From Tsuneonella suprasediminis (GTDB taxonomy: Bacteria > Pseudomonadota > Alphaproteobacteria > Sphingomonadales > Sphingomonadaceae), in the NCBI RefSeq assembly GCF_003605755.1, contig NZ_RAHJ01000021.1, positions 1-48,611 of the forward strand: DNA of 48,611 nt, written 5' to 3'. The position numbers and the translations under genes are program-made. Each line of letters opens with the position of its first letter. Within the stretch, counting starts at the first letter, position 1. Under the pieces are notes generated by a model, which worked only from the letters and a program-made list of their open reading frames with translations, searched no databases and was not told the origin of the DNA. Positions 39,705 to 48,611 of this stretch are shown here, one piece after another.

Positions 39705-40826
39705 TCAACCCTGCAACCTCTCGTTCACGACCGCCCCGCCTTTGGTCAGGCGCACGGCATCGCCGATTTCTTCGTCCAGAGTGACAGTGCCCGCTTCCTT
39801 GTCCCAGAATGCGGAGAGGAAGTTGAACAGGTTGCGCGCGAACAGTGCAGAGGCATCTGCCGCCAGCGTGGCAGGAGTGTTGGCAAAGCCGATGATCTTC
39901 ACGCCATGCTTTTCCACCACCTGATCCGCGACCGACCCTTCGACGTTGCCCCCTTGGGCCACTGCCAGATCGAAGATCACGCTGCCCGGCTTCATGCTGG
40001 CAACCTGCGCGTCCGAAATCAGGCGCGGCGCGGCGCGGCCAGGGATCAGCGCGGTGGTGATAACGATATCCTGTTTGGCGATATGGCCCGATACCAGTTC
40101 GGCCTGCGCCTTCTGGTATTCTTCGCTCATTTCCGTGGCATAGCCGCCGCTGCCTTCGCCTTCGATTCCCGCGACGCTTTCGACGAAAATCGGCTTGGCC
40201 CCAAGCGACTGGATCTGTTCCTTCGTCGCGCTTCGCACGTCGGTTGCGGAAACCTGCGCGCCCAGCCGCTTGGCCGTGGCAATCGCCTGCAACCCGGCAA
40301 CACCGACGCCCATCACGAATACCCGCGCGGCCTGAACCGTGCCGGCGGCAGTCATCATCATCGGGAACGCCCGGCCATATGTATCGGCGGCAGCGATCAC
40401 CGCCTTGTATCCGGCAAGGTTGGACTGGCTGGATAGCACATCCATGCTCTGCGCGCGGGTGATGCGCGGCATGAACTCCATGCTCAGCGCTTCCAGCCCG
40501 GCGCTGGCATAGGCATCTACACGCGCACGGTTGCCAAACGGGTCGAACGTAGCGGCGACCATTGCGCCGGGATTCACCCCGACAAGAGCACCCGGATCGG
40601 GCGCCTGCACACCAAGGACGATATCCGCACCCTTCAGCACCTGCTCCGCCGGGCCAAGTTCGGCCCCGGCATCGGAATAGGCGGCATCGGTGATGGAGGC
40701 AGTTTGCCCGGCGCCCTGTTCAACCGCGACGACAGCACCCAACCCCATGAACTTCTTCACAGTTTCAGGTGTGACTGCGGCGCGGGTTTCACCCGGAGCA
40801 GTCTCCTTGAGGACAGCTATCCGCAA
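39705..40826 (-). CDS. pntAA: NAD(P) transhydrogenase subunit alpha, NAD-binding part
   Basis: The soluble NAD(H)-binding subunit, 373 residues. The N-terminus RIAVLKETAPGETRAAVTPE begins with TTG at 40826, nine bases downstream of the subunit IV stop; no better start is in frame, since translation upstream would enter that gene. The Rossmann motif is VFVMGVGVAGLQAIATAKRLGA, and FDLAVAQGGNVEGS contacts NAD. It is first of the pntAA-pntAB-pntB set. Confidence 0.94.
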   Translation of the reverse strand: MRIAVLKETAPGETRAAVTPETVKKFMGLGAVVAVEQGAGQTASITDAAYSDAGAELGPAEQVLKGADIVLGVQAPDPGALVGVNPGAMVAATFDPFGNRARVDAYASAGLEALSMEFMPRITRAQSMDVLSSQSNLAGYKAVIAAADTYGRAFPMMMTAAGTVQAARVFVMGVGVAGLQAIATAKRLGAQVSATDVRSATKEQIQSLGAKPIFVESVAGIEGEGSGGYATEMSEEYQKAQAELVSGHIAKQDIVITTALIPGRAAPRLISDAQVASMKPGSVIFDLAVAQGGNVEGSVADQVVEKHGVKIIGFANTPATLAADASALFARNLFNFLSAFWDKEAGTVTLDEEIGDAVRLTKGGAVVNERLQG

Positions 40827-40834
40827 GGCGGCGA

Positions 40835-40960
40835 TCAGCTTGCGATCGCGAGAACGACCAGCGCCACAATGATGATCAACACCGGAACGCTGATTTTGAC
40901 TAGCCCGATGAAGCCATCGTAAGTGCCTTCGTGTTCCTTCATATCGTTTGCAGATGCCAT
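40835..40960 (-). CDS. aa3-type cytochrome c oxidase subunit IV
   Basis: A 41-residue protein with a short charged start (MASANDMKEHEGTYDGFIGL) and one membrane helix (VPVLIIIVALVVLAIAS). This is the bacterial subunit IV family (COX4_pro_2), a single-helix subunit of aa3 oxidases. Unlike the rest of the oxidase genes it is encoded directly upstream of pntAA, nine bases away, and so appears to be co-transcribed with the transhydrogenase. Confidence 0.85.
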   Translation of the reverse strand: MASANDMKEHEGTYDGFIGLVKISVPVLIIIVALVVLAIAS

Positions 40961-41114
40961 TGTGATAAATACCCCTGTGTTAGGCAAACTCTCTTTCCCA
41001 CTTCCTATCGAACGCTCGCCACAGGCTCAAGCCCTGTCGCATCAGCCTTAATCTCGCATTTACTTGCCTGGCGTAAAGCGGGCTTTCGTACCATAACGGG
41101 ACATTCGGGTAACT

Positions 41115-42536
41115 ATGGCACACGGCGCAGAACGCCTCCTGATGCTGATTGACGACGAACCGGCGCAGAGCCGGTTAATCAGCGCGCTCGCCGCCCGTGA
41201 GGGCTGGCGTACGATCGTAGTGGCCGATTCGGAAAGCGCCATCGCCACCCTTGGCACACGCCAGGGGATGCAGCTGTCCGCGATCATCCTCGACCAGTGG
41301 GTGCCGGGCGACGATGCCTGCAGCCTGATCGAAGAACTCAAAGCCCGCCGCCCCGGTCTGCCGGTACTGATGCTGACCACCAGTTCCAGCCCGTTGCTGG
41401 CGGTAGAGGCGATGCGCGCAGGTGCCACCGATTACCTCATCAAACCGGTCGCGCCCGACCGTCTGATGCAGGCCCTCCGCAGTGCGACCCGGCAGGAAGC
41501 TCCGCGCGACGAACTGCAACCGCTGACCGAGAAGATGGGCACCGTGCTCGACTTCGACGCGATGGTCGGCACCGCGCCGATGTTCCGCGCCGCTCTCGCC
41601 AAAGCTGCCAAGGCCGCTCGCGGCCACGGCAACGTGCTGATCGAAGGCGAGAACGGCACCGGCAAGGAGATGCTGTTGCGCGCAATGCACGCGGCCAGCC
41701 CGCGTTCGAAGGCGCCGTTCCGGCTCATCAACGCACGCGGCATTCCGGCCCATTCCATCGAATCGGTGCTGTTCGGGCATGAGAAAGGCGCATTTCCCGG
41801 TGCGTTCGAACGGCAGATGGGCGCATTGCAGTTTTGCGATGGCGGCACACTGGTGATCGACGAAGTCGACCGGCTCGACATGGCAATGCAGGCCAAGCTG
41901 GCCGAAACGCTGGCCACCGGCGTGGTTCGTCCCGTTGGTGCGAAGCACGGTTTCCGCATCGATGTGCGGGTGCTGAGCGCGAGCAACCTGCCGCTGATCG
42001 ATGCGAAGAACGCGGGCTACTTCCACCCCGCCCTGCTCGAACAGCTCGGCGCAACGCGTATTGCGCTGCCCGCCTTGCGTGACCGGGCGGGCGATATCCC
42101 TGCCCTCTCACGCTATTTCCTGGCGCGTATCGGTGAACAGCCGGGGCTTCGCACGCTGACCATAACCGACAGCGCACTGTCGTTGCTGTCGGCATACGAC
42201 TGGCCGGGCAACGTGCGCCAGTTGCAACAGGTGCTGTTCCGCGCTGCCGTGTTCTGCGACGGCGATGCGCTGACCGCCGCCAGCTTCCCGCAACTGACCG
42301 AGATGCTGGGCAGCGAGTTCGACGATCAGCGCGACCCGCGACAGGAGGGCGTGGGCGTGATGCTCTACACCGACGATGGCAATCTGCGCCCGTTGGAAGA
42401 GATCGAGGCCGATGTGATCCGGCTGGCGATTGGCCACTATCGCGGGCGAATGACCGAAGTGGCCCGGCGGCTGGGGATCGGACGCTCGACGCTCTATCGC
42501 AAACTGGGCGATCTGGGGATCGACAACGCTGCATAG
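41115..42536 (+). CDS. NtrC-like response regulator with degenerate sigma-54 activation motifs
   Basis: A 473-residue regulator with the NtrC layout. The receiver domain (1-125) has the acidic pair D13-D14, phospho-acceptor D60, T89 and K110. The AAA+ domain (about 145-385) keeps Walker A GENGTGKE (178-185) and Walker B GGTLVIDE (243-250). The sigma-54 contact loop reads GAFPGA (225-230) instead of GAFTGA. Where activators have two arginine fingers (FRxDL...RL), this protein reads FHPALLEQL, so both arginines are absent. A Fis-type helix-turn-helix lies at about 430-468. It may bind DNA without activating sigma-54 polymerase. No partner kinase is adjacent. Confidence 0.88.
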   Translation: MAHGAERLLMLIDDEPAQSRLISALAAREGWRTIVVADSESAIATLGTRQGMQLSAIILDQWVPGDDACSLIEELKARRPGLPVLMLTTSSSPLLAVEAMRAGATDYLIKPVAPDRLMQALRSATRQEAPRDELQPLTEKMGTVLDFDAMVGTAPMFRAALAKAAKAARGHGNVLIEGENGTGKEMLLRAMHAASPRSKAPFRLINARGIPAHSIESVLFGHEKGAFPGAFERQMGALQFCDGGTLVIDEVDRLDMAMQAKLAETLATGVVRPVGAKHGFRIDVRVLSASNLPLIDAKNAGYFHPALLEQLGATRIALPALRDRAGDIPALSRYFLARIGEQPGLRTLTITDSALSLLSAYDWPGNVRQLQQVLFRAAVFCDGDALTAASFPQLTEMLGSEFDDQRDPRQEGVGVMLYTDDGNLRPLEEIEADVIRLAIGHYRGRMTEVARRLGIGRSTLYRKLGDLGIDNAA

Positions 42537-42850
42537 TGGCGGTCCGGTTCACGCAGACATGGACCGCTCCTTCAAGTTTTGAAAGTGTGACTTTCGTCCT
42601 CCAAAATCGCAACTCCGCGCAGCAAACACTTGTGTTCATGTCCATTTTTTTGGTCTGATCGTGGCACACGGCATCGTCACGATGTGGCTTTCGCATTTCG
42701 CCCGTTTGGACTGCCGGATCGCACTTTTTTCCAAACCTCCATTCCACCTGCAATTGCACCGCGCGAAACGCAGCTCCGACCGGCAAAGTGCCACGATGCA
42801 TATCGTGTAGGAAAACCGTTTCGCCGCCCGCTCTGCTCCGCTAGATTGCG
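42537..42850. other. Spacer with hairpin, no gene seen
   Basis: A stem GCGGTCC/GGACCGC (42539-42567, loop 15) follows the response regulator gene and is a possible terminator. A T7 run occurs near 42645. No coding frame on either strand looks real; the long minus-strand frame here is an extension of non-coding antisense sequence. Confidence 0.5.
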
Positions 42851-43727: not shown

Positions 43728-43848
43728 CGTCATTGCGAGGAGCCGAAGGCGACGTGGCAATCCATCGTCCGCCCTTGGCCTCCGTCACAACCGCCGCGAT
43801 AGGCGGAACCCTCACCCCATGGATTGCTTCACTGCGTTCGCAATGACG
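43728..43848. repeat. Palindromic repeat B, full copy
   Basis: It opens CGTCATTGCGAGGAGCCGAA and closes TTCACTGCGTTCGCAATGACG less its first base; the two ends are inverted complements. The middle has CACAACCGCCGCGATAGGCG. Confidence 0.85.
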
Positions 43849-43876
43849 AGTGGGGAGGCATGCGACTATCCCAAGC

Positions 43877-43965
43877 CGTCGCCCCGGACCTGATCCGGGG
43901 CCCCGCTATTCTTCTGGCACGGCACTGGCAGAAGCTGGACCCCGGCTCGGTGGCCGGGGTGACGG
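43877..43965. repeat. Palindromic repeat A, full copy (89 bp)
   Basis: It contains two inner palindromes, GCCCCGGACCTGATCCGGGGC-like on the left and CCCCGGCTC...GGCCGGGG on the right. The same 89-bp length recurs at 47989 and 48444. Confidence 0.85.
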
Positions 43966-44019
43966 AAGCGGGGCGACGGGGCGACGGGGCGGGTAAGAAC
44001 GTAGCCTCACCCGCCCCCT

Positions 44020-44142
44020 CGTCATTGCGAGGGGCCGAAGGCGACGCGGCAATCCATCGACCGCCATTCGCCTCATCCCCAACCAGTGCGATGGGCGCGA
44101 CCGCCGAGCCTTGGATTGTGCTTCACCGCGTTCGCAATCACG
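44020..44142. repeat. Palindromic repeat B, full copy
   Basis: Starts CGTCATTGCGAGGGGCCGAA and ends GCGTTCGCAATCACG. It follows repeat A by 54 bases, with a linker containing AAGAACGTAGCCTC, as in the right-end modules. Confidence 0.8.
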
Positions 44143-44256
44143 AAGAGTGAAACGCGCTGGAGCCACCCGACACAATGGCCACGGTGAATGCACAGACTGT
44201 GCAGGGAAGCAGAACCGCCCCGGCAGCACCGGCCACAAACCCCGGATCGGGCATTC

Positions 44257-46631: not shown

Positions 46632-47747
46632 TCAGTCCCCCGGCAGAGCGGAGAAATCGGTCAGTGCGGCATCGCGCAGACCGCGCCATACATTGCGCGC
46701 CTGCACCGTTTCGAACACGTCGTGGACCCGCACGATCTGCACCCCGGCGTCCATCCCCTTGACCGCCAGCGCCACGCTGCCGCCTTGCCGCTGTTGAGCG
46801 GCAACCTCGTTGCTGAGCGCGCCGATCATCCGTTTGCGGCTGACGCCTAGCATAATCGGCTGCCCCAGTGCATGAAAAAGCGGCAGTGCATTGATAAGAA
46901 ATAGATTTTCCGCCAGCGACTTACCAAACCCGATGCCGGGATCGAGCACGATATTGGCCCGCGCCACGCCGGCGGCCAGTGCCGCATCGCGCCGTTCGCG
47001 CAGCCAGTCGAACACATCGAACGCCACTGCGGCATAGTCGCCATCGGCATGCAGATCTTCGCCCTCCCCCGGCGCATGCATCAGCACCACCGGACAGCCG
47101 CGCGCCGCGACCAGTTCCATGCTGCGCGGATCGTGGCGCAGGGCGGATACGTCGTTGATCATATGCGCCCCATTGTCGAGCGCGGCCTCCATCACCGCGG
47201 CACGGCGGGTATCGACGCTGATCGCCGCGCCCATCTGCGCGCAGTATTCGACTGCAGGGCGGACCCGCTCAAGCTCGTCCCCCTCCCACACGGCAGGCGC
47301 GCCGGGACGCGTGGATTCGCCGCCGATATCAACCATCGCCGCGCCCGCTTCCAGCATCTGCGCCGCGTGGGCCGCGCCGTCTTCGGGCCGGTCGAGAAAC
47401 TTGCCTCCGTCGGAGAAGCTGTCGGGCGTGACATTGAGGATACCCGCCACTTGCGGCTGATCGAGCCGGATCGTGCGCCCGCCCATCTGCAACGGCGGAT
47501 GCGCCATCCGCAGATTGCTCCACTGCGCCTCCGCCTCTGCGCCCAGATCGGCCGGAAGCGCGGCGAAGGTATCGGCCGCCTCCGCCGGGCTGAACCGCAA
47601 GCGCTGCGTCACCTGCCCGCCCTGCCGCACGATCGCGGCAAAGCGGTGGGCATAGACCAGCCCTCCGGCCAGCCGTACCGCATCGCCCTCTTCGCTTTGC
47701 GGGCTATCGCAGAGGCCGATGGGCTGGAGGTAGATCTGCTGGCTCAT
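46632..47747 (-). CDS. folP: Dihydropteroate synthase
   Basis: A folate enzyme of 371 residues that joins 4-aminobenzoate to dihydropterin pyrophosphate; it is the sulfonamide target. The catalytic barrel starts at about residue 98 with VAGILNVTPDSFSDGG and DIGGESTRPGA; DPGIGFGKSLAENL and SRKRMIG follow. An N-terminal extension of nearly 95 residues is absent from E. coli FolP but is seen in other sphingomonads; its role is unknown. FolB lies elsewhere in this window, so the pathway genes are not clustered. Confidence 0.94.
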   Translation of the reverse strand: MSQQIYLQPIGLCDSPQSEEGDAVRLAGGLVYAHRFAAIVRQGGQVTQRLRFSPAEAADTFAALPADLGAEAEAQWSNLRMAHPPLQMGGRTIRLDQPQVAGILNVTPDSFSDGGKFLDRPEDGAAHAAQMLEAGAAMVDIGGESTRPGAPAVWEGDELERVRPAVEYCAQMGAAISVDTRRAAVMEAALDNGAHMINDVSALRHDPRSMELVAARGCPVVLMHAPGEGEDLHADGDYAAVAFDVFDWLRERRDAALAAGVARANIVLDPGIGFGKSLAENLFLINALPLFHALGQPIMLGVSRKRMIGALSNEVAAQQRQGGSVALAVKGMDAGVQIVRVHDVFETVQARNVWRGLRDAALTDFSALPGD

Positions 47748-47988
47748 CGCGCGCGCACCTTCATGTAACAGGGTGACATGGACCGCATGTTACACAGTCC
47801 TGAAGAGAAAAAATCCGCCTCTACCAATCGCCGTTTGCAATGGGGATGGAAAGGGCAATGGCGGCGCATTCCCCCGATCTATGGCGAGCGGGCGCTGTAG
47901 GAAAGAGGGTGAGAGGGTGGGAGGCACCGTCTGCCACCCACGCGCGGCGCCTGCGGTCATCTGGCCACCACCGCCCCGCATTTTGCAA
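47748..47988. other. Spacer upstream of folP
   Basis: Apart from the inverted repeat at 47764-47794 I see nothing that can be supported here; the open frames have no homology. Confidence 0.5.
47764..47794. promoter_or_regulatory. Inverted repeat TGTAACA/TGTTACA upstream of folP
   Basis: Two perfect 7-bp inverted half sites, 47764-47770 and 47788-47794, are 24 bp apart centre to centre, 17 to 47 bases before the folP start. They could bind a dimeric or paired regulator, or contain the promoter. Confidence 0.35.
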
Positions 47989-48443
47989 CGTCGCCCCGGA
48001 CCTGATCCGGGGCCCCGCTCCTCTTCCTGCGCGACACTGGCAGAAGCTGGACCCCGGCTCAAAGGCCGGGGTGACGGAACCGGTGCGGCGGCGAGAGGGG
48101 GTGGGCAAGAACGTAGCCTCGCCCCACCTCGCCATCCGTCATCGCGAGAAGCCGCAGGCGACGTGGCAATCAAAGGACCGCCCCTTTGCCTCCATCACAG
48201 CCGAAGTGATGGGCAGCATCCTCACGCCATGGATTGCTTCACTGCGTTCGCAATGACGAACGGAGGGGGCAGGACGATAGCCAAGCAGGCAAGAACGCGG
48301 CCTTACCCGACCCCGAGCCTCGTCATTGCGAGGAGCCGAAGGCGACGTGGCAATCCAAGGACCGTACCTCGCCCCTCTCACACCCGCCGTGATGGGCGGC
48401 ACCATCGCGCCATAGCTTGCGGAGAAGCCTGACCACCCCACAA
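47989..48443. repeat. Compound repeat module, first copy of a 455-bp tandem unit
   Basis: The unit consists of repeat A (47989-48077), a 59-bp linker with GGGCAAGAACGTAGCCTCGC, a full repeat B (48137-48258), a short spacer, and a truncated second repeat B from 48321. The next copy starts at 48444 with the same order. Confidence 0.85.
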
Positions 48444-48611
48444 CGTCGCCCCGGACCTGATCCGGGGCCCCGCTCTTCTTCCTGCGGGGCACTGGCAAAA
48501 GCTGAACCCCGGCTCGGTGGCCGGGGTGACGGAACCGGTGCGGGGGTGAGAGGGGGCGGGCAAGAACGTAGCCTCGCCCCACCTCGCCATCCGTCATCGC
48601 GAGAAGCCGCA
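48444..48611. repeat. Second copy of the 455-bp unit, cut by window edge
   Basis: Repeat A at 48444-48532, the same 59-bp linker, and the first 20 bases of repeat B from 48592 are in register with the first copy at a constant offset of 455 bp. The sequence continues beyond the window. Confidence 0.85.

Follow-up and report, generated by a model that had tools for sequence, protein, structure and literature searches.

The window analysed here, a stretch of 48,611 nucleotides from Tsuneonella suprasediminis, contains at 41115..42536 on the forward strand (ATG start, stop codon included) an open reading frame for a 473-residue response regulator with the architecture of a sigma-54 activator and a degenerate AAA+ domain. 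Pfam matches to Response_reg, Sigma54_activat (142.1 bits), AAA_lid_14 and HTH_8 place a receiver, an AAA+ domain and a Fis-type helix-turn-helix (HTH) in a single chain. The receiver spans residues 8-124 by Pfam and alignment (41136..41486) and has D13, D14, D60, T88 and K110 all present. The AAA+ alpha/beta subdomain, delimited by Pfam, alignment and an AlphaFold model, covers residues 149-320 (41559..42074) and retains K184 of Walker A and D249/E250 of Walker B, sensor II Arg368 (42216..42218) is likewise kept, and the HTH occupies residues 426-470 (42390..42524). Among NCBIfam families the best match was NtrC, at 281.8 bits against a cut-off of 558.6, and none of the best 25 of 89 families reached its own cut-off.

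Compared with the motifs of a bEBP, the protein thus has Walker A, Walker B and sensor II, and departs from the expected sequence in two places. In the L1 loop region (residues 220-232, 41772..41810) the GAFTGA motif, with Thr or Ser expected at position 4, reads GAFPGA (residues 225-230), Pro228 being encoded at 41796-41798. The segment FRxDLxxRL, which holds the arginine fingers, reads FHPALLEQL (residues 303-311, 42021..42047), with His304 (codon 42024-42026) and Gln310 (codon 42042-42044) at the two arginine positions. An earlier note, made from the sequence alone, had described both substitutions, as well as the persistence of the Walker motifs, the receiver aspartate and the HTH, and in this it was right; its statement that the contact loop had been lost went too far, since the Thr is substituted and not the loop removed, with loop length kept and Phe227 found in 159 of 159 family proteins. 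The AlphaFold monomer model reached a pTM of 0.54, with block means of 89-96 pLDDT over residues 151-320, and the domain folds look intact in this model, which as a monomer carries no information on rings. In a Foldseek comparison the six top-ranked PDB chains by E-value were those of NtrX from the alphaproteobacterium Brucella abortus (5m7n/o/p), with whole-chain TM-scores of about 0.5.

Pattern searches upstream of the gene found, on the forward strand, a CtrA-box-like site, TTAA-N7-TTTA (41048..41062), and a dyad, CGTACC-N5-GGGACA (41087..41103), which is a candidate operator of the regulator itself. The form TTAA-N7-TTWA matches that of the CtrA box. On the reverse strand lie a 41-residue open reading frame of the aa3-type cytochrome c oxidase subunit IV family (COX4_pro_2; 40838..40960), situated between the regulator and the pnt genes, a pntA-like transhydrogenase subunit gene (39705..40826) and, downstream of the regulator, a folP-like gene for a pterin-binding enzyme (46632..47747). 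A comparison of 94 loci of at least 7 kb, in which the clustering of reading frames was approximate because antisense frames entered, showed divergent pntA/pntB genes on one side and folP on the other to be recurrent neighbours; in many genomes a DNA methyltransferase gene comes next after folP (PntB and the methyltransferase were named by eye). Several copies with canonical motifs adjoin the same pnt genes (L177, L179, L181 and L226) or folP (L179 and L223), which makes at least these five positional orthologues; the remaining canonical copies lie elsewhere, or on contigs where the neighbourhood could not be seen. Short frames resembling the COX4_pro_2 frame seem readable upstream in relatives. 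Elsewhere in the window, the stretches at about 43824-44240 and 47770-48600 contain repeated fragments of reading frames (PDLIRGPA..., HCERSEAIH...) and resemble a family of repeats dispersed over intergenic DNA.

The genome of the strain (3.30 Mb) retains the sigma factor that such a regulator would serve. A search for rpoN, which the earlier note had proposed as a check, located its DNA-binding domain at G000:C17:201166-201642 (E 3.5e-69; G000 denotes the window's genome), and rpoN was present in 59 of 60 genomes searched, this one included, the exception being a genome that is 67% complete. Five strong activator-type AAA+ domains were found in the genome, and other AAA proteins account for four further, weak matches. 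By eye, the five belong to an NtrC-like (L001), a PEP-CTERM-regulator-like (L002), a PspF-like (L003) and an NtrX-like protein (L004) and to the regulator studied here. GAFTGA and the finger motif are intact in L001, L002 and L003, and the NtrX-like protein, encoded at a different locus, has a shortened L1 without GAFTGA and keeps FREDLFYRL. With rpoN and three intact activators in the genome, sigma-54 control evidently persists, and the loss is specific to the gene at 41115-42536.

An orthologue from Tsuneonella flava (L044) is 99% identical. Of 298 family genomes in the sample, 246 contain a match with an E-value of 1e-80 or better and 52 contain none, some of the latter being incomplete. 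From 226 loci, 159 distinct proteins of at least 280 bits were tabulated, the remainder being duplicates or below that score; they comprise 141 ingroup proteins (Sphingomonadaceae, at least 42% identity) and 18 outgroup proteins, all 18 of which have the canonical Thr, Arg and Arg. In the ingroup, 44 proteins keep all three residues, 54 have lost all three, and 43 are intermediate: 19 of these lack Thr and the second Arg, ten Thr and the first Arg, ten Thr only, three the second Arg only, and one both arginines with Thr kept. The 54 fully degenerate proteins nevertheless preserve most of the surrounding machinery, with the Walker A Lys and the loop Phe in all 54, the sensor II Arg in 53, the Walker B Asp and the receiver Asp in 51 each, and the Walker B Glu in 46. 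In the nearest clade (n = 76), residue 228 is Pro in 62 proteins and Ala in ten, with Thr kept in four. The earlier note had treated normal motifs in orthologues as a sign of a sequence error. Distant orthologues do have normal motifs and near ones are degenerate, a pattern which speaks for evolution; recurrence of the changes throughout the nearest clade rules out a sequencing error.

A tree of 95 representatives was built with the motif columns removed and rooted on the group that holds the Brevundimonas copy L086 and other alphaproteobacteria; its support is SH-aLRT only, with 29 of 92 inner branches drawn open. The minimum number of changes on this tree, with gain and loss undistinguished, was 11 for Thr, 11 for Arg304 and eight for Arg310, compared with ten for the Walker B Glu, five for the Walker B Asp, four for the receiver Asp and two for the Walker A Lys. 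The main degenerate clade (35 rows, support 100) includes copies from genomes recorded as Erythrobacter, Qipengyuania, Croceibacterium and Novosphingobium in addition to Tsuneonella. As counted from the tree, Arg310 is kept in two and Arg304 in 12 of its 35 rows, so the second finger, which by motif position corresponds to PspF R168 and NtrC1 R299 (PMC7175178), seems to have been the first to go in this clade. Separate changes occurred in other lineages, where L161 and L163 lack all three residues, L166, L167 and L169 lack Thr and Arg304, and L156, L165 and L172, as well as L159, lack Thr and Arg310. In a comparison of independent pairs, Thr loss and finger loss were not significantly associated, the sample being too small. 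The receiver Asp is replaced by Ser in L166, L167 and L169 (genus code g98) and by Gly in L039, and loss can therefore extend to the phosphorylation site. Two proteins of genus code g57, L160 and L164, show the reverse: GAFTGA and both arginines are intact, and the Walker A Lys is replaced (Ser, Thr).

The gene is under purifying selection. Whole-gene dN/dS, estimated by a simple count method and at high dS, was 0.02-0.12 in eight pairs from the degenerate group (at least 60% identity, 76 full-length proteins, a group not defined by the tree alone); two canonical pairs gave 0.04 and 0.21. Mean pairwise identity in the degenerate group (n = 76) was 0.79 for the receiver, 0.64 for the AAA+ alpha/beta subdomain, 0.76 for the lid and 0.94 for the HTH. 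The corresponding values in canonical sphingomonad proteins (n = 35, at least 50% identity) were 0.62, 0.77, 0.76 and 0.92, and it follows from the opposite trends in receiver and alpha/beta subdomain that constraint has shifted from the ATPase to the receiver. The low dN/dS, the HTH identity and the conserved receiver speak against a pseudogene, and that reading was rejected.

The same shift is visible at single positions. Positions were scored as lost when kept in at least 95% of 60 canonical proteins (the 44 ingroup and 18 outgroup proteins minus L160 and L164) and in less than 60% of the degenerate group. All 17 lost positions (188, 207-209, 214, 228, 238, 241, 247, 263, 264, 304-306, 309, 310 and 313) lie in the AAA+ alpha/beta subdomain, where 54 of the 105 conserved positions are located, and none of the 51 conserved positions elsewhere was lost (Fisher p = 3.8e-6, a guide only as the sequences are related). 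Conversely, ten positions are newly fixed in the degenerate group, and five of them (61, 63, 90, 93 and 107) are in the receiver, near Asp60, Thr88 and Lys110 in the sequence.

The promoter architecture is shared well beyond the window. Within 200 bases upstream, a TTAA-N7-TTWA site is present for 73 of 77 copies in the degenerate group, for 33 of 44 among the canonical sphingomonads and for ten of 18 in the outgroup; shuffled upstream sequence gave 0.3-0.6% (0.3% for the degenerate group). For dyads close to TGTCCC-N5-GGGACA, a spacer of 5 was the most enriched in all three groups. With at least nine of 12 matches, this dyad occurred in 83%, 50% and 57% of the copies, compared with 11-12% after shuffling; other spacers were also somewhat raised, up to 32% (spacer 3). 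The value for the degenerate group (n = 77) is 57%, against 11% in its shuffles, and the dyad is therefore weak or missing in many degenerate copies. In the 73 box-bearing degenerate copies, 49 dyad matches lay downstream of the box where 3.0 were expected; measured from the start of the box, the distance is exactly 39 bases for 25 of these matches and 37-40 bases for 37. In the 33 box-bearing canonical copies, 15 matches followed the box where 1.3 were expected, seven of them at 32-34 bases. Outgroup and canonical copies share the dyad form, and the HTH is strongly conserved; these patterns are most simply read as an ancestral site of the regulator itself that outlasted the loss of the motor.

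Searches for further binding sites gave little beyond the gene's own promoter. The pattern YGTAYC-N5-GGGACR stands directly before the regulator gene in seven of eight genomes (all but G003) and is the sole match in five of them; the single match in G003 lies elsewhere, and the window's genome and G225 have one further match each. In every one of the eight genomes, matches were fewer than for the reversed-pattern control, and the looser YGTNCC-N5-GGGACR, applied to six genomes, likewise gave counts no higher than its reversed control (six against nine in the window's genome); no regulon beyond the own promoter is thus demonstrable from pattern counts, and what the stricter pattern does show is that the site at this gene is close to unique in the genome. 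The second match in the window's genome (L312, around 1501-1517; G000:C21:177023-177039) is located some 100 bases upstream of the first Met in a frame that by eye resembles a LuxR-type protein with an autoinducer domain, and is possibly an additional target or a chance match. A related sequence, TGTnCCGCYAAGGGACG, recurs on either strand near position 1501 in L230, L233, L235, L241, L242 and L249, mostly close to a TonB-receptor-like frame. It might be part of a cobalamin riboswitch, and these TonB-receptor-adjacent matches were set aside as targets because they resembled another conserved element.

The protein probably belongs to the family of Caulobacter TacA, an assignment made by elimination in Brevundimonas and by shared features. 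TacA is the CtrA-controlled sigma-54 activator of the ShkA-ShpA-TacA phosphorelay, its gene is reported as a direct CtrA target (PMC7010744), and the bEBPs described for Caulobacter are NtrC, NtrX, FlbD and TacA, of which TacA and FlbD have GAFTGA and NtrC and NtrX do not (PMC10274813). TacA orthologues are reported in all analysed Brevundimonas genomes (PMC5590869). Brevundimonas aurantiaca has four strong activators, which by eye are FlbD-like (L256), NtrX-like (L271), DctD-like (L267) and a fourth, L261, identical with the tree's L086. As the other three are assigned otherwise, L086 is by elimination the probable TacA; it scores below the NtrC, NtrX and FlbD cut-offs and ends in Ala-Gly. 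The DctD-like protein (L267:973-2391, by eye) has GAFAGA with an intact finger motif and is another protein that deviates from GAFTGA.

With TacA the regulator shares the order of receiver, AAA+ domain and Fis-type HTH, a CtrA-box-like promoter site in most copies and a C-terminal pair of small residues, and L086 falls in the canonical outgroup of the tree. The pair is Ala-Ala here (42528..42533) and in 70 of 77 copies of the degenerate group, compared with the Ala-Gly through which TacA is degraded by ClpXP (PMC7010744), and its possible role as a ClpXP degron is suggested by this resemblance only. Judged by descent, the CtrA-box pattern at 41048-41062 agrees with a TacA identity, although no TTAA-N7-TTWA site was found within 200 bases upstream of L086. 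Judged by function the two differ: in TacA the GAFTGA motif is intact and sigma-54 is the partner (PMC10274813), whereas the regulator lacks the Thr and both fingers.

As to the phosphorelay, a single weak Hpt match was found in the window's genome, in a hybrid-kinase-like frame. A stand-alone Hpt protein of Sphingomonas (L294), which could not be identified as ShpA, occurs in 117 of the 298 family genomes; of 13 main-clade genomes searched for it, 11 lack it and two, G011 and G033, have it. In 71 rows, this Hpt was absent in 22 and present in 12 with the finger lost, and absent in six and present in 31 with the finger kept. A link between Hpt absence and finger loss was rejected as an effect of shared ancestry, a mean of 0.0 of four independent pairs being in agreement.

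Regulators without GAFTGA are already known, Caulobacter NtrC and HupR among them. FleQ is an activator-like protein reported or proposed to work without sigma-54 at least at some promoters. The same applies to TyrR, DhaR, HupR and VpsR (PMC3162934); all five represent other families, and no shared locus or CtrA link was seen. Further parallels are the NtrC proteins of Caulobacter and Rhodobacter capsulatus, response regulators that lack the sigma-54 contact motif and act at sigma-70 promoters (PMC10274813). In these, however, the loop is deleted (by eight residues in Caulobacter), whereas the present protein keeps the loop length, has the Thr substituted and has altered fingers as well. A survey from 2011 listed about 110 EBP homologues with minor GAFTGA deviations, with Pro the preferred replacement of Thr/Ser at position 4 (PMC3162934); proteins of the present type may be among its supplementary lists, and its main text has no mention of Novosphingobium, Sphingomonas, Erythrobacter or TacA. 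In a literature search that had most subscription papers outside its scope, we found no description of a repeated stepwise loss, fingers included, within one CtrA-linked orthologous family, nor of TacA or GAFTGA degeneration in Sphingomonas, Novosphingobium or Erythrobacter.

Taken together, the reading we favour, with moderate confidence, is that the protein is a sphingomonad member of a CtrA-linked family with sigma-54-activator architecture that has given up sigma-54 remodelling and now serves as a phosphorylation-gated DNA-binding regulator. It would probably act at sigma-70-type promoters and repress its own gene. Phosphorylation of Asp60 would control assembly on DNA, which ATP binding without productive hydrolysis perhaps also gates, and the HTH would still read the ancestral dyad close to TGTCCC-N5-GGGACA. 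Bound there, at a position relative to the transcription start that we infer, the regulator would silence the CtrA-driven promoter of its own gene, which is of the sigma-70 type; a small number of further sigma-70 promoters may also be among its targets, and ClpXP would clear it through the C-terminal Ala-Ala. A scan for the sigma-70 consensus over 40800-42700 found one site, which is not upstream of the regulator gene. The earlier note's suggestion of a phosphorylation-controlled repressor, or an activator with another sigma factor, agrees with an unimpaired receiver and with the operator-like dyad following the CtrA-type box. Its expectation that sigma-54 polymerase would not be remodelled is well supported, though short of proof, by the loss of Thr228 and both arginines, by the confinement of relaxation to the AAA+ alpha/beta subdomain and by published work on these residues (PMC2941729, PMC3162934, PMC7175178), and is weakened by the retained sensor II Arg368. 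A sensor II Arg may stand in for the finger in FleQ (PMC10723142), which speaks against a clean loss of ATPase activity, and with the Walker A Lys and sensor II Arg so widely kept in the fully degenerate proteins some ATPase activity may persist. Nucleotide requirements vary among the precedents: ATP binding rather than hydrolysis is needed by R. capsulatus NtrC, whereas both are reported as needed by Caulobacter NtrC, which has no GAFTGA (PMC10274813).

The same retained features could indicate that the protein is still a sigma-54 activator, in which a divergent L1 loop makes the contact and the sensor II Arg supports hydrolysis; Walker A/B, Arg368, loop length and Phe227 are all kept, rpoN is in the genome, and FleQ offers a model for the finger. 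This seems quite unlikely to us, as the Thr position holds Pro or Ala in 72 of 76 proteins and both arginines, together with E305, D306, Y309 and R264, are gone in most of the clade. In PspF the GAFTGA Thr is critical for the sigma-54 contact (PMC2941729), and single changes in the motif, of Phe or Thr above all, are reported to mostly abolish activity, Thr to Pro being a recurrent deviation (PMC3162934). The candidate site, moreover, follows a CtrA-type box, and a scan of the whole window for -24/-12 promoters gave no signal (three matches against 2.0 expected). That the protein is an inactive partner in mixed rings, modulating sigma-54 output through another activator of the cell, would agree with the predicted intact AAA+ fold and the canonical activators of the same genome. 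Nonetheless, the finger-segment residues and R264 are relaxed instead of being replaced by one fixed new set, and the recurrent neighbours include no second activator, so that we consider such a role very unlikely.

A relaxed ATPase part, varied substitutions at positions 304 and 310 and the lack of a match in 52 family genomes, some of them incomplete, might also be expected of a gene that is decaying towards loss. The low dN/dS over the whole gene, the highly conserved HTH, a receiver more conserved than in canonical relatives and the preserved promoter architecture render this highly improbable. Finally, the regulator could mainly activate sigma-70-type promoters, as R. capsulatus NtrC does (PMC10274813), and the conserved receiver and nucleotide site would suit that role. 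It is an unlikely alternative to autorepression in our view, because the only well supported site lies between the CtrA-type box and the start codon, where blocking is easier than activating.

For the history of the family we tentatively propose, with slightly less than even confidence, that a CtrA-controlled sigma-54 activator is being turned, in parallel and stepwise, into an ATPase-dead, phosphorylation-gated DNA binder that keeps its ancestral operator, often at a conserved locus, with Arg310 lost early and Arg304 later and repeatedly in the main clade. Living genera still contain all three kinds of copy, canonical, half-way and fully converted, and the route from sigma-54 activator to sigma-70 regulator could therefore be replayed. 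A possible cause lies in the cell-cycle circuitry, as Caulobacter DivJ is controlled by TacA/SpmX, and in the Sphingomonadales DivJ-PleC-DivK is degenerate or absent, with CckA-ChpT-CtrA retained and in many cases CpdR and RcdA as well (PMC2877005). If the main output of TacA disappeared in this way, sigma-54 activation would no longer have been needed.

If this reading is true, the family documents a repeated path along which an ATP-driven activator sheds its motor and its regulatory role stays, with the intermediates still alive. The annotation 'sigma-54-dependent regulator' can then mislead for genes of this type in Sphingomonadaceae. For the Erythrobacteraceae and Novosphingobium it would imply a differently wired CtrA-linked circuit, from which the TacA output known from Caulobacter may be gone.
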